Part shown: in pieces, positions 50,954-63,715 of the stretch
How positions within the stretch are numbered: position 1 is the first letter of the stretch
Layout: each line of letters starts with the position of its first letter
Assembly (NCBI RefSeq): GCF_902712875.1
Contig: NZ_LR743509.1
Span: forward strand, 62,001-126,000
Direction: 5' to 3'
Length of the DNA stretch: 64,000 bases
Source: Hyphomicrobium sp. ghe19
GTDB lineage: Bacteria; Pseudomonadota; Alphaproteobacteria; Rhizobiales; Hyphomicrobiaceae
Notes under the pieces: generated by a model
Database searches by the model: none
The model's input: the letters and a program-made list of their open reading frames with translations, nothing else
What the model was told of the DNA's origin: nothing
Translations under genes and position numbers: made by a program

Positions 50954-51700
50954 CTACCTCGTGGCGGGCTTGAGGAAGCGCCCGTGTTTGCCGAGCATTT
51001 CCGTGGCCAAAAAGGCGACTTGCGTTCGATTGTTTACATCCAGTTTTTTCATGATGTTGTGAATATGAACCTTTACGGTGCTCTCGCTCATGTCGAGTTC
51101 GTAAGCGATGAGTTTGTTCGTTTTCCCTCTTCGCAAAGATTCGATGACTGCGATTTGGCGGTCAGTAAACAGATCTGCGCTGGAATATCGCAAATCGCTC
51201 CTTGAGTTTTCCATCTTGTGCTGTGCCGAGATAAGACTTCCGGCTGGCACGAAGGTGCCTCCGGCTCTTACTAGGCGAATAGCCTCGATTGCCAAATCCA
51301 AAGACATCTGAGCAGGGAAATACCCGCGAGCGCCTTGCTCGATCGTGTCGACAATATAGCCGCTGTCTTCTTCATCAGAAATGAGAATGACGGGCGGCGG
51401 AATTGAAAGAGAAAAAATAAAGCCTATGCTGTCTTTCAATCGATGCTCCTGTCTCCCATCGCCGAGGCACAATAGGACAATTGAGGTTTTGTCCAAATCG
51501 CAGTGATCAATCCAGTCTTTGACTTGTGGAAAGCCAGAAACTTCAAGGCCGGATGCAGCGGCAATGGATCGCGTTATACAATCACGAAAGAAAGTTCTCC
51601 ATTCGATCACCGCGATCGCCGGCTTGTGAAGATAACTCGACACGGTTCCAATTCCTTTATTCAGCTCAGCATTCCTTGCTGTCGATCGCCGCACAGCCAT
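50954..51700 (-). CDS. NarL/LuxR-type transcriptional regulator
   Basis: About 230-248 residues (a GTG at 51643 is an alternative start). Residues 30-150 resemble a receiver domain in length and Ile-Val-Leu-Leu and Ile-Leu-Ile-Ser-Asp strands, but the phosphoacceptor Asp region is altered, so phosphorylation is doubtful. The last 65 residues are a GerE helix-turn-helix (Leu-Phe-Thr-Asp-Arg-Gln ... Ser-Thr-Val-Lys-Val-His-Ile). It diverges from the collagen-like operon, whose first gene starts 617 nt away, and is the best candidate for its regulator. Confidence 0.85.
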   Translation of the reverse strand: MAVRRSTARNAELNKGIGTVSSYLHKPAIAVIEWRTFFRDCITRSIAAASGLEVSGFPQVKDWIDHCDLDKTSIVLLCLGDGRQEHRLKDSIGFIFSLSIPPPVILISDEEDSGYIVDTIEQGARGYFPAQMSLDLAIEAIRLVRAGGTFVPAGSLISAQHKMENSRSDLRYSSADLFTDRQIAVIESLRRGKTNKLIAYELDMSESTVKVHIHNIMKKLDVNNRTQVAFLATEMLGKHGRFLKPATR

Positions 51701-52317
51701 TCGGGGGGCGCAGCGCGTGCGCGTGTAGACATCGCTACGGCTTGCGGACGTTGACGTGCTTTATTCTTGTGCTCTGATTTTTTTCGAACGCACTGATGCA
51801 AGTTAGGGCCTACGCGATTTGGCTCAAAAAGGGGGCCTCGCACTAATTTCAGTTAGCATGTGTGGGCACCCAAATGGCGCAGCCAGCCTTGGCCAATTGG
51901 TAGACAAAATTTCCGAGCCTCAAGCTTATGGCCACTCGGTCGGCGAAATGGCTATGTTTCTGACTAAAGTAGAAGTGATAATGGCTATTTTCGTTCTGGA
52001 TTCCACTTTTTGACAGATATCAATTGGTCCCCAATTCAATGACCATCGACTTGTCGCGCCAGAATTGGTGCGGCCCCTGTCGCGGTTTAGCGGCCGCGCG
52101 CTGTGTAGTCGTCCGTGGTGCAGCCTTCGTTTGGCTGCCTCCTTTGGATCTAGAATGATCCGAGGAATCGATATTTCTCCGGACGCATATTGGGTCTATC
52201 GGCGTTACCGCTTCGAAGGTCCGATCCTCGAAGCGCAACCGCCAAATTGGATGTCGCCGCGGAACGTGAATCTCCGCTGACGCGATTGCGAAACATCAAC
52301 CGTAAAGGCGTATCGAA
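51701..52317. other. long divergent promoter region before the collagen-like operon
   Basis: 617 nt. A 41-codon frame at 52155-52280 (Met-Ile-Arg-Gly-Ile-Asp ...) ends 37 nt before the first gene; it lacks a good ribosome binding site. Several AT-rich stretches occur at about 51770-51850 and 51950-52030. The length suits multiple regulator sites, but no clear palindrome or promoter pair could be fixed. Confidence 0.4.
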
Positions 52318-52728
52318 ATGAATAGCGCATTTTTCAATGTATCTGGTATCGACCCCCACGATGGCGCAACGCTCGTTTTCGTTTGGTGTCGCAATGAAGG
52401 CGCTCCCGCTCATAGGAACGTACTTTTGGGGTCTGGACATGTGGTGGGGGCTGTTGGATGCGGGCGTCCCCCAGGTGTCGCAGTGGGACAATTCAGTGTC
52501 ACGTTTCTGCTGCCGCAGGGATGTTCGCCCAACGATATCATCGTAACGAGTAACGCGGAGGACAGCGAGTATTTGCGCGATGTGACCGTAACGCCTTGTT
52601 CCAGGGTCTCTAGTATTTCGGCAGCAAATGATCTCAACGATGTGCGCCGGTATTCGCGTCCCATCGGCACTCAAGCTTCTTACAATCGCGCCAATTCTGA
52701 TGGCTTGAAAGTGGAGGCGAAGTCATGA
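52318..52728 (+). CDS. small protein coupled to the collagen-like gene
   Basis: 136 residues, no signal peptide, four Cys. The first half is beta-rich (Asp-Gly-Ala-Thr-Leu-Val-Phe-Val-Trp), the last 30 residues polar. Its stop overlaps the start of the collagen-like gene in an ATGA, so the two are translated together, perhaps at a set ratio. It could be a chaperone, secretion partner or a second subunit. No family recognised. Confidence 0.65.
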
Positions 52729-61786: not shown

Positions 61787-62908
61787 ATGAACAAAGTGGG
61801 CCAAACGTTTTGCTTGAACATGATCGTAAAAAATGAGGCGCCAGTAATCCGGCGGTGCCTTGATAGCGTCCGGCCGCTGATAGATCGTTGGATGATTGTA
61901 GACACCGGCTCGACCGATGGCACCCAAGAGATTATTCGAAGCGAACTAAGCCGACTGCCTGGCGAACTCCATGAGCGACCATGGCGCAATTTTGCGCATA
62001 ACCGAACAGAAGCACTGCAGCTCGCGCGTGGCAAGGCCGATTACACTCTAATAATTGACGCCGACGACGAGCTGGAGATCGGTAATCCTGAAACGATTCC
62101 CGGGCTCCTCGCCGACTCTTACACCGTGGAAATTAATGATACGGCAACTGTCTATCAGCGTACGCAACTTATGAGAAATGCGCTGCCTTGGCGTTACGAA
62201 GGTGTGCTGCACGAATATCCCACGTGCGACGGTGCTGGCCCTTCGGAGCTGCTATCCGGGCTTCGAATTCTGCGCAATCATGACGGGGCGCGTCGCAAAG
62301 ATCCGCAAACTTACCGGCGCGATGCCGAAGTGCTCGAGACAGCGTTGAAGACCGAAACCGATCCGTTTCTGCTTGCGCGCTATCGTTTTTATCTCGCGCA
62401 AAGCTTTCGTGACTGCCACGAGTGGGAAAAAGCTGCTGAGCATTACTTAACCAGAGCCAAACTCGGATTCTGGCAGGAGGAGGTCTTCTTCAGCCTTTAT
62501 AGTGCCGCCCAGATGAAAGAGCGGCTCGGCCATCCCGACCAGGAGGTAATCGATACCTTCCTTCGCGCCAGTGACGCGTTGCCGACACGAGCCGAGGCGC
62601 TTTATGGCGCCAGCCGATTTTGCCGCAACAAAAAGCGCTACAGCGAGGGATATGAGATGGCGAAGCGCGGCCTGCAAATATCCATGCCGTCGGATGCGCT
62701 ATTTCTCGAGCCCTGGATTTACGAAACGGGTCTATTGGATGAGTTCTCGATCAATGCGTACTGGTCCGGGCACCATCGCGAGAGTCTCGATGCAAGCCTG
62801 AAGATGCTCGCCACTGGGAGGCTCTTGAGCGCCGACATGCAGCGCGTCGTTGCGAATGCTCGATTTGCCGCCGATGCGTTGCCCATGGAGGCGCACCCGG
62901 GATCCTAG
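61787..62908 (+). CDS. family 2 glycosyltransferase with C-terminal helical repeats
   Basis: 373 residues. Residues 10-110 are a GT2 fold: Met-Ile-Val-Lys-Asn-Glu at the start, Asp-Thr-Gly-Ser-Thr-Asp-Gly-Thr for the nucleotide sugar and Asp-Ala-Asp-Asp-Glu as the DxD-type metal site. The C-terminal 200 residues are helical and look like TPR repeats, the design of several protein O-glycosyltransferases. GGAG precedes the ATG. No membrane helix, so it would act in the cytoplasm before export, which suits an unfolded type I substrate. The collagen-like protein is the obvious candidate acceptor. Confidence 0.88.
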   Translation: MNKVGQTFCLNMIVKNEAPVIRRCLDSVRPLIDRWMIVDTGSTDGTQEIIRSELSRLPGELHERPWRNFAHNRTEALQLARGKADYTLIIDADDELEIGNPETIPGLLADSYTVEINDTATVYQRTQLMRNALPWRYEGVLHEYPTCDGAGPSELLSGLRILRNHDGARRKDPQTYRRDAEVLETALKTETDPFLLARYRFYLAQSFRDCHEWEKAAEHYLTRAKLGFWQEEVFFSLYSAAQMKERLGHPDQEVIDTFLRASDALPTRAEALYGASRFCRNKKRYSEGYEMAKRGLQISMPSDALFLEPWIYETGLLDEFSINAYWSGHHRESLDASLKMLATGRLLSADMQRVVANARFAADALPMEAHPGS

Positions 62909-62989
62909 GCGGCGAAGCTGTCATTTTACCGTATGAACGATCGAGCGCTGCTTTCTCTCGCTGCAACGGCCGATGTCCTCGAAAGTGGC

Positions 62990-63715
62990 TCAGAATTGGG
63001 AGTTCAAATAGCCGCCTTTGTATCCAGCGAGGCGCCGTAACCCGTCCAAGTCGTGAATCGTCACTGTGCCGTTCCGGACTGTCAGCAGCATCTGCTCTCG
63101 GAGCTGACGCAAGACCCGGTTGACGTGTATTGCGGTGAGCCCGAGAGCATCGGCGAGAACGAATTGGCTGAGGGGACACTTAAATTCTCCCCCCTTGGCC
63201 AACCCAACCAAACTGAGACGTTCGACCAGCTCCATAAAAAGGTGGGCGGTTCTTTCAACGGCACTTCGCCGACCCAAGTTGACCAAATGTTCGACGACCA
63301 TCGACTCGTCACGTGACGCCGCCCAAAAGAAAGCCGCGCCGAGACGGGGATATCGCATGACGTTTTCGAGCAAGCTGGCACCGTCCACACCGCTCACCAC
63401 CGCGTTGGTCAGTGCCAAAACAGAGTGATCGGCTGTTCGTAGCAGCATGCTCCGCAGCCCCAGGCAATCGCCAGCCACCGGAAACGAAATGATCTGCCGG
63501 TTGCCGTTCGGGAGATCCTTATAGCTGCACGCCCAGCCTGAATGCAGCACGAAGGCTTTGTGGCCGGTTTGGCCCTCGTCGATAAGCTGCGCACCACGTC
63601 TAATTGCGACCGGCTCGGACTGAAGCTGTCTCAAGCACTGCAACTCTTGGGCCGATAAAGGCAGAAAAGCACTGAGCTTCCTCGCGAAGGGGATGTCCCG
63701 TTGGACAACGCTCAT
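62990..63715 (-). CDS. Crp/Fnr-family transcriptional regulator
   Basis: 241 residues: a cyclic-nucleotide-binding-like beta-roll (Gly-Gln-Thr-Gly-His-Lys-Ala-Phe-Val-Leu, then Phe-Pro-Val-Ala-Gly-Asp) and a winged HTH with Leu-Ser-Gln-Phe-Val-Leu-Ala-Asp-Ala-Leu-Gly-Leu-Thr ... His-Val-Asn-Arg-Val-Leu-Arg. The Fnr cluster Cys residues are absent, and the cAMP-contact Arg/Glu are not clear, so the signal is unknown. It is convergent with the glycosyltransferase gene. A GGAGAAAG site precedes the ATG. Confidence 0.9.
   Translation of the reverse strand: MSVVQRDIPFARKLSAFLPLSAQELQCLRQLQSEPVAIRRGAQLIDEGQTGHKAFVLHSGWACSYKDLPNGNRQIISFPVAGDCLGLRSMLLRTADHSVLALTNAVVSGVDGASLLENVMRYPRLGAAFFWAASRDESMVVEHLVNLGRRSAVERTAHLFMELVERLSLVGLAKGGEFKCPLSQFVLADALGLTAIHVNRVLRQLREQMLLTVRNGTVTIHDLDGLRRLAGYKGGYLNSQF

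Follow-up and report, generated by a model that had tools for sequence, protein, structure and literature searches.

A Putative Island-Borne Locus for the Synthesis, Modification and Export of a Threonine-Rich Bacterial Collagen in Hyphomicrobium sp. ghe19

Genes Found at the Locus

The window, which is the whole 64,000-nucleotide stretch of Hyphomicrobium sp. ghe19 that was analysed, contains a block of genes that begins with a gene for a collagen-like protein (CLP). This is followed by genes for a HlyB-type ABC exporter, a HlyD-type adaptor, a Sel1-repeat protein, a metallopeptidase-like protein with an HExGH motif and a GT2 glycosyltransferase (Table 1). The core block, from CLP to the GT2 enzyme, covers 52725–62908, and each of its frames is open in the list of open reading frames (ORFs). 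The region is no artefact and is more than a chance neighbourhood. An original prediction, made from the bare sequence, had named these genes together with two regulators, and each of them was found where it had been placed. The same prediction described the glycosyltransferase as a GT2/TPR enzyme. The GT2 assignment stood; no Pfam TPR domain was found in the protein, and a designed TPR protein in the PDB matched it weakly (E 0.52).

One gene had been overlooked in that prediction. It encodes a protein of 136 residues, overlaps the start of the CLP gene by 4 bases and has a homologue of 37% identity in the same position at a related locus, L008. The protein may itself be a relative of the N-terminal domain (N-domain) of CLP, given an hhalign probability of 59 (E 9e-5) and a blastp match at E 6e-4. 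Frames also overlap between the ABC and HlyD genes and between the HlyD and Sel1 genes, as in a coupled operon, and the probable start of HlyD is the ATG at 57947, which overlaps the stop codon of the ABC gene. The first 120 residues of the ABC protein are uncertain, because the residues conserved in its relatives begin near residue 122.

Table 1. Features of the locus, with positions in the window.
Feature	Position	Strand	Remarks
tRNA-Ser (CGA)	47392..47481	+	last 15 bases recur beyond the window
LuxR-type regulator	50954..51700	-	Pfam GerE, E 2e-18
136-residue protein	52318..52728	+	homologue at the same place in L008
CLP, 866 residues	52725..55325	+	Pfam Collagen, E 1.7e-66
HlyB-type ABC exporter with degenerate C39-like region	55432..57984	+	ABC_membrane, ABC_tran; conserved from about 55795
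HlyD-type periplasmic adaptor	57947..59341	+	TIGR01843; open frame from 57755
Sel1-repeat protein	59313..60833	+	Sel1, E 1e-45
HExGH metallopeptidase-like protein with leader of twin-arginine type	60858..61769	-	probable start 61757
GT2 glycosyltransferase, GmaR/SunS-like, IDADD motif	61787..62908	+	GT2, E 1.2e-12
Crp/Fnr-type regulator	62990..63715	-	Crp HTH and cNMP domains

Conservation of the Block in Relatives

The N-domain of CLP was found in six of the 297 genomes of the order. These are the window's own genome, G004, which belongs to another family, and four genomes of one genus in a third family, very probably Rhodomicrobium; the relatives in these genomes share 46–58% identity. Since such relatives exist in genomes, the absence of matches at E 1e-3 in a large protein collection is uninformative. 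The same is true of a whole-genome search with Pfam Collagen, which gave no hit in 15 genomes, not even in that of the window. One further N-domain match, weak (E 0.009) and located at C1:55181-55378 (L002), lies inside a frame of 1816 residues and was set aside as probably due to chance.

The ABC gene is present at 79% identity in four of the five genomes of the third-family genus. Conservation of the gene order elsewhere had been proposed as a check, and the same order was indeed found in genomes of two other families. At L008, the small gene is followed by CLP, ABC, HlyD, Sel1 and the glycosyltransferase, with no HExGH match. At L009, the order is GT2b (a second GT2 enzyme), CLP, ABC, HlyD, Sel1, HExGH and glycosyltransferase; at L078, it is CLP, ABC, HlyD, Sel1 and HExGH, with no GT2 match. 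The whole gene set is present at L079. The CLP gene lies directly upstream of the ABC gene in all five close loci (at least 78% identity) that could be assessed, L080 being cut at a contig edge. The flanking regulators fared differently. Neither the LuxR-type nor the Crp/Fnr-type protein, both of which had been counted as parts of the system, gave a match at E 1e-3 in the related loci L008–L012, of which L008 and L009 alone are covered on both flanks. The two were dropped from the block and probably lie outside it.

Some loci show variations of their own. GT2b, an enzyme of 406 residues, is encoded upstream of CLP in the Rhodomicrobium-type loci (L009:13505-16889, L010 and L011), and a methyltransferase-like protein of about 539 residues with weak GT1-type matches is also found upstream of CLP in L009–L011. 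In G073, the CLP gene is split over two contigs (L006 on G073:C17 and L078 on G073:C23), and the frame of its N-domain holds a TAG stop. The exporter locus of this genome has no GT2 or COLGALT-like match and is perhaps a decaying copy.

Accessory Location of the Block

The block is accessory and appears to be mobile. The nearest sibling genome, G297, shares 98–99% identity with the window strain in two housekeeping proteins; it has no GT2 match and no close ABC homologue (best 33%). The glycosyltransferase was found at E 1e-20 in none of the 21 other genomes of the genus. Nucleotide synteny with both G297 and G300 ends at 47481, the last base of the tRNA-Ser gene. In the case of G297, which has about 36 kb of different DNA at this place, it picks up again close to window coordinate 91680, and with G300 no resumption was seen in the sequence fetched. 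The stretches searched contain one further copy of the last 15 tRNA bases, at 70934–70948 (L014: 7935–7949). An island is recognised by a sharp break at the 3′ end of a tRNA gene and a direct repeat, and both are present here. It is possible that the island spans 47482–70948, from the tRNA-Ser gene to the 15-base repeat. No integrase was found among the ORFs scanned, which covered part of those in the stretch. The proteins of G004 share 66–67% identity with those of the window in housekeeping functions and 79% in the ABC exporter. This fits transfer, though HlyD, Sel1 and the glycosyltransferase share 58–68%.

A terminase small-subunit-like gene adjoins the right repeat, and the island site is variable among genomes of the genus. 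On the left of the island, the protein encoded at 48317–49183 has an N-terminal domain that resembles AbiJ_NTD4 (E 1.7e-7, narrowly short of the Pfam cut-off), and its gene may serve in defence. At L014:2556-3611, a cyclopropane-fatty-acid-synthase-like (CMAS) gene is present as two adjacent open frames and may be interrupted.

The Collagen-Like Protein

CLP consists of the N-domain (about residues 1–99), Gly-X-Thr repeats (about residues 100–728) and a C-terminal tail of about 138 residues that ends in LPKH. The repeat region comprises 200 counted Gly-X-Y triplets, a long repeat of the kind by which prokaryotic collagen-like proteins are recognised. Threonine occupies 83% of the Y positions, and the X positions hold 72.5% alanine and 6.5% proline. 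The threonine content at Y is 91–96% in the relatives at L008–L010 and 97.8–99.1% in those at L018, L021 and L027; for bacterial collagens in general, a value of 31.6% is given (PMC8968730). The 131 Gly-Ala-Thr triplets are encoded by 28 nucleotide versions that use all four threonine codons. This indicates that the protein sequence is kept constant and not the DNA, and plain DNA repetition is not the cause. Lysine amounts to 0–2.5% per triplet in the collagen repeats. The high threonine content at Y suggests that the protein may carry O-glycosyl-threonine.

No hydrophobic leader was seen by eye at the start of CLP, and the protein contains no RTX-type motif (GG.G.D); such repeats are common in type I cargo, though not found in all of it. 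The tail is weakly conserved in all five complete tails of close relatives, and all of these end in P[KR]H; the tails at L018, L021 and L027 (Methylobacterium and Mesorhizobium) end otherwise. A conserved tail would allow a C-terminal export signal. The collagen at L021 bears a DUF4347 domain.

The Glycosyltransferase and the COLGALT-Like Domain

The glycosyltransferase of the window is 373 residues long and stops at 62908, and its orthologues, at 68% identity over these 373 residues, have 647 and 694. The extra part of the L009 enzyme is homologous to human procollagen galactosyltransferase 1 (COLGALT1; E 5.4e-28) and to the middle region of LH3 (residues 271–493; E 1e-10). By sequence homology, the N-domain of COLGALT is present in the enzymes of both L008 and L009. 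The middle domain of LH3 is described as its accessory domain (PMC13382579). A Mesorhizobium protein, P0062, carries both COLGALT1 domains in order (residues 404–802 on 11–427, E 2.4e-42), with its FEDD motif aligned on the FEDD of COLGALT1. The COLGALT-like domain was found at E 1e-5 in 539 proteins of a large collection, and at least 32 of the best 120 of these, counted by hand, also bear GT25. A 2024 review relays a suggestion that donor and metal bind to the DxD motif of the N-domain of COLGALT1 (PMC11012932). Assignments of catalysis to one or the other of the two COLGALT1 domains differ. A later structure paper reportedly assigned catalysis to the GT25 domain with its Glu-Asp-Asp motif.

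Neither the window nor the flanking sequence fetched around it showed a remnant of the COLGALT-like domain. A class-wide search found the domain in none of 385 genomes; it lacked a positive control and was redone on eight genomes with controls. Matches were obtained in G004, G139, G030 and G190 and none in G000, G073, G297 and G300. Membership of the window enzyme in the COLGALT family was ruled out, the N-domain and the GT25 domain both being absent. It is unlikely that the window carries a decayed or reduced copy which lost the domain and whose collagen is exported with little or no sugar. The end of the enzyme at residue 373 would agree with such a loss, as would the absence of the domain from the rest of the genome in a search that succeeded in its four positive-control genomes. 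However, the frames are open, the GT2 part has kept its identity to the orthologues along with the IDADD motif, and the separate GT2b of the Rhodomicrobium-type loci, which has no COLGALT-like domain, indicates that there is nothing unusual in an enzyme with the GT2 part alone.

The solved chains nearest to the GT2 part are GmaR (E 5e-11) and SunS (E 6e-6), with IDADD aligned with IDAD. Both are protein glycosyltransferases, GmaR having flagellin as its substrate. These relatives, together with the COLGALT1-like domain of the orthologues, support the view that the window enzyme would modify a protein.

Linkage to Collagen Genes and to the HExGH Protein

A scan of named genome contigs with an alignment of the COLGALT-like domain gave 21 loci. 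They include Rhodoblastus, seven Mesorhizobium, Methylobacterium fujisawaense, R. udaipurense, two Methylobacter and metagenome bins of other groups. A collagen-like run, defined as at least 12 Gly-X-Y triplets, was present in 14 of the 21 (L017–L021, L023–L025, L027, L029, L030, L032, L034 and L036) and in none of 17 stretches of 20 kb taken arbitrarily from related genomes, the sequence compared being 315 kb and 340 kb, respectively. Runs of at least 33 triplets occurred in 10 of the loci. By hand arithmetic, the probability of such linkage by chance is about 1e-5, a figure to be read with loci that are not independent and a control that is not matched by taxon. In L035 and L037, which come from Chlamydiae-type bins, two COLGALT-like stretches stand in a row, with no collagen run in the sequence examined.

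This linkage bears on a rival idea, according to which the glycosyltransferase is next to collagen genes only fortuitously and works on something else, for example a surface polysaccharide or flagellin. The GT2 and GT25 families do include polysaccharide enzymes, and the nearest solved relative acts on flagellin. Nevertheless, with linkage to collagen in several genera and orthologues that are homologous to the collagen enzyme itself, we consider this idea highly doubtful.

Searches with the HExGH protein gave no match in Pfam or NCBIfam and none of weight among PDB sequences, and profiles of its family and of the CLP N-domain found nothing significant among solved structures. The HExGH motif and an EE pair are invariant in all 11 aligned sequences, and an RR pair stands near the start of nine, these being the ones taken with their N-terminus. 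A twin-arginine (Tat) leader, an HExxH motif and conserved acidic residues together point to a zinc metallopeptidase, in agreement with the Tat-exported HELGH protease of the original prediction. Homologues occur in 10 of the 21 loci (L017–L024, L027 and L031). When the 120 listed HExGH homologues were compared with the 120 listed COLGALT-domain proteins, 11 of the former had a longest contig identical in size to that of one of the latter; shifts of 1 to 10 bases gave 0–2.

The Exporter Module

The best NCBIfam model for the ABC protein is TIGR01846 (HlyB-type; E 4.5e-153), with 511 of 725.55 bits and below the curated cut-off; its peptidase C39 region matched at E 0.043. The HlyD protein scored 291.6 bits with TIGR01843, above the cut-off of 208.65. 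An ABC protein and a HlyD protein encoded together mark type I secretion of the HlyB/HlyD kind. The ABC protein was found at E 1e-180 in 10 of 385 genomes class-wide, the window's own included. At the Methylobacterium locus L027 (ABC 53%), collagen, ABC, HlyD, Sel1, glycosyltransferase and HExGH genes occur together.

Nine other ABC loci (L069–L077; 42–54% identity) were compared. HlyD was kept in all nine and Sel1 follows in seven. A glycosyltransferase lies near seven of these exporters (L069, L070, L071, L072, L073, L074 and L076), and the enzymes beside the modules are of several types, including GT2, GT41 with TPR and GT92. L077 has a CBM60/beta-helix protein in place of a glycosyltransferase. 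As none of the nine has a collagen run, the exporter appears to be a wider module with changing cargo, and it is possible that ABC-HlyD(-Sel1) modules near glycosyltransferases represent a broader class of type I exporters for glycoproteins.

A rival reading makes the exporter a general type I module (ABC-HlyD-Sel1) of Alphaproteobacteria for surface proteins that carry sugars. Collagen would be one of several interchangeable cargoes, and the glycosyltransferase would not be collagen-specific. The nine distant loci, with their varied enzymes, are in favour of this, the count of seven glycosyltransferases standing without a background rate near other exporters. The constant place of CLP directly upstream of the close exporters argues against it, and so does the COLGALT-like enzyme, which accompanies collagen even where there is no exporter. 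A general module of this kind is possible but rather unlikely.

A Proposed Pathway

On balance, we think it somewhat more likely than not that the island-borne block serves to produce a bacterial collagen, to modify it and to export it. CLP would be made in the cytoplasm, where the GT2 enzyme may add sugars to its threonines. The ABC and HlyD proteins, drawing on an outer-membrane channel supplied from outside the block and aided by Sel1, would then export the protein by means of its C-terminal tail, and the chains would trimerise outside. At the surface, the Tat-exported HExGH peptidase may trim the collagen or a partner. In relatives, one or two further COLGALT-homologous domains of the enzyme may add or extend the sugar; the window enzyme would act with the GT2-type part alone, and the strain probably runs a reduced version of the pathway. 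Because the helix holds little proline, it is proposed that sugar on threonine could replace hydroxyproline as the stabiliser of the helix, by analogy with Riftia and BclA. In the cuticle collagen of Riftia, glycosylated threonine has been tied to triple-helix stability (PMC11766948).

Several observations weigh against this pathway. No collagen run was found at the more distant exporter loci, and at seven Mesorhizobium loci the 13–21 kb examined at each contained nothing that matched the ABC protein at E 1e-5. The COLGALT-like domain is missing from the window enzyme and from the whole genome, the GT2 match from L078 and the HExGH match from L008. Seven of the 21 COLGALT-domain loci have no collagen run (L022, L026, L028, L031, L033, L035 and L037), among which L031 stops at the expected start of CLP, and little upstream sequence is available for L022 and L026. 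In L029, L030, L034 and L036 the runs are short (15–24 triplets), and the random control is not matched by taxon. The collagen-like proteins of L025 and L034 have apparent Sec leaders. Lastly, the L008 collagen has 22% proline at X, so the poverty in proline is not universal. The original prediction had spoken of one self-contained pathway. That the genes are kept together was borne out, but the word self-contained is weakened by nine out of nine more distant exporters without collagen, by the glycosyltransferase, collagen and HExGH genes of Mesorhizobium without the exporter, and further by one relative that lacks HExGH and another that lacks the glycosyltransferase.

A broader proposal is held more tentatively. 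Bacteria may possess dedicated collagen-glycosylation loci. Their cytoplasmic enzymes, in which a GT2 domain is fused to a COLGALT-like pair, would glycosylate threonine in Gly-X-Thr collagens that contain little proline, and a triple helix could then form without hydroxyproline. The ancestry would be shared with animal COLGALT, and at some loci the modification would be coupled to a dedicated type I exporter of the Sel1 type and to a metallopeptidase at the surface. If this is true, COLGALT-type collagen glycosylation extends beyond animals and giant viruses, and in bacteria it would act on threonine and not on hydroxylysine. It would explain how bacterial collagens with very little proline are stabilised, provide single-gene enzymes for glycosylated recombinant collagen and turn the origin of the animal enzyme into a testable question. 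It would also link a class of Sel1-associated type I exporters to protein glycosyltransferases.

Comparison with Known Systems

Taken singly, the parts of the system all belong to known kinds. Neither their combination nor collagen-linked bacterial enzymes of the COLGALT type were found in the literature searched, which does not establish that they are absent from it. In one open-licence library, no paper was found that brings together a collagen-like protein, type I secretion, a glycosyltransferase and Sel1, none that links a bacterial procollagen galactosyltransferase to a collagen-like protein, and none on collagen glycosylation in Mesorhizobium.

The exporter resembles the HlyB/HlyD type I systems in its HlyB-like ABC protein with a degenerate C39-like region, in HlyD and in the cargo gene directly upstream. 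It differs in that the cargo has no RTX motif of the GG.G.D form and that a Sel1 protein and a glycosyltransferase are part of the block. The GT2 catalytic region is similar to that of SunS, which acts on a glycocin, and of GmaR, which acts on flagellin; here the presumed substrate is collagen. FlmG is described as a cytoplasmic flagellin O-glycosyltransferase of Alphaproteobacteria (PMC7591256). Modification in the cytoplasm before export, as given there for FlmG, is what is proposed here. However, FlmG is a GT-B enzyme with an N-terminal TPR domain, whereas the enzyme of the window is of the GT2 type and its presumed substrate is collagen.

Bacillus BclA, which is reported to be glycosylated (PMC8968730), also has a collagen-like region rich in Gly-X-Thr. 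In contrast to BclA, the present system has a linked type I exporter, far more threonine at Y, an enzyme of the COLGALT type in relatives and no exosporium context. The bifunctional hydroxylase/glycosyltransferase of Mimivirus acts on hydroxylysine and is part of a viral system. It resembles the present case as an instance of a collagen and its glycosyltransferase outside animals (PMC8968730).

A further parallel is with COLGALT1/2 (GLT25D) and the middle region of LH3, to which the extra domain of the orthologous enzymes corresponds, and P0062 has both glycosyltransferase domains in the same order. The bacterial genes adjoin collagen-like genes. Unlike the animal proteins, the bacterial enzymes are fused to a GT2 protein-glycosyltransferase domain, and the window copy is without the COLGALT-like domain. 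The animal enzyme uses hydroxylysine as its acceptor, whereas in these lysine-poor repeats the acceptor is likely to be threonine.

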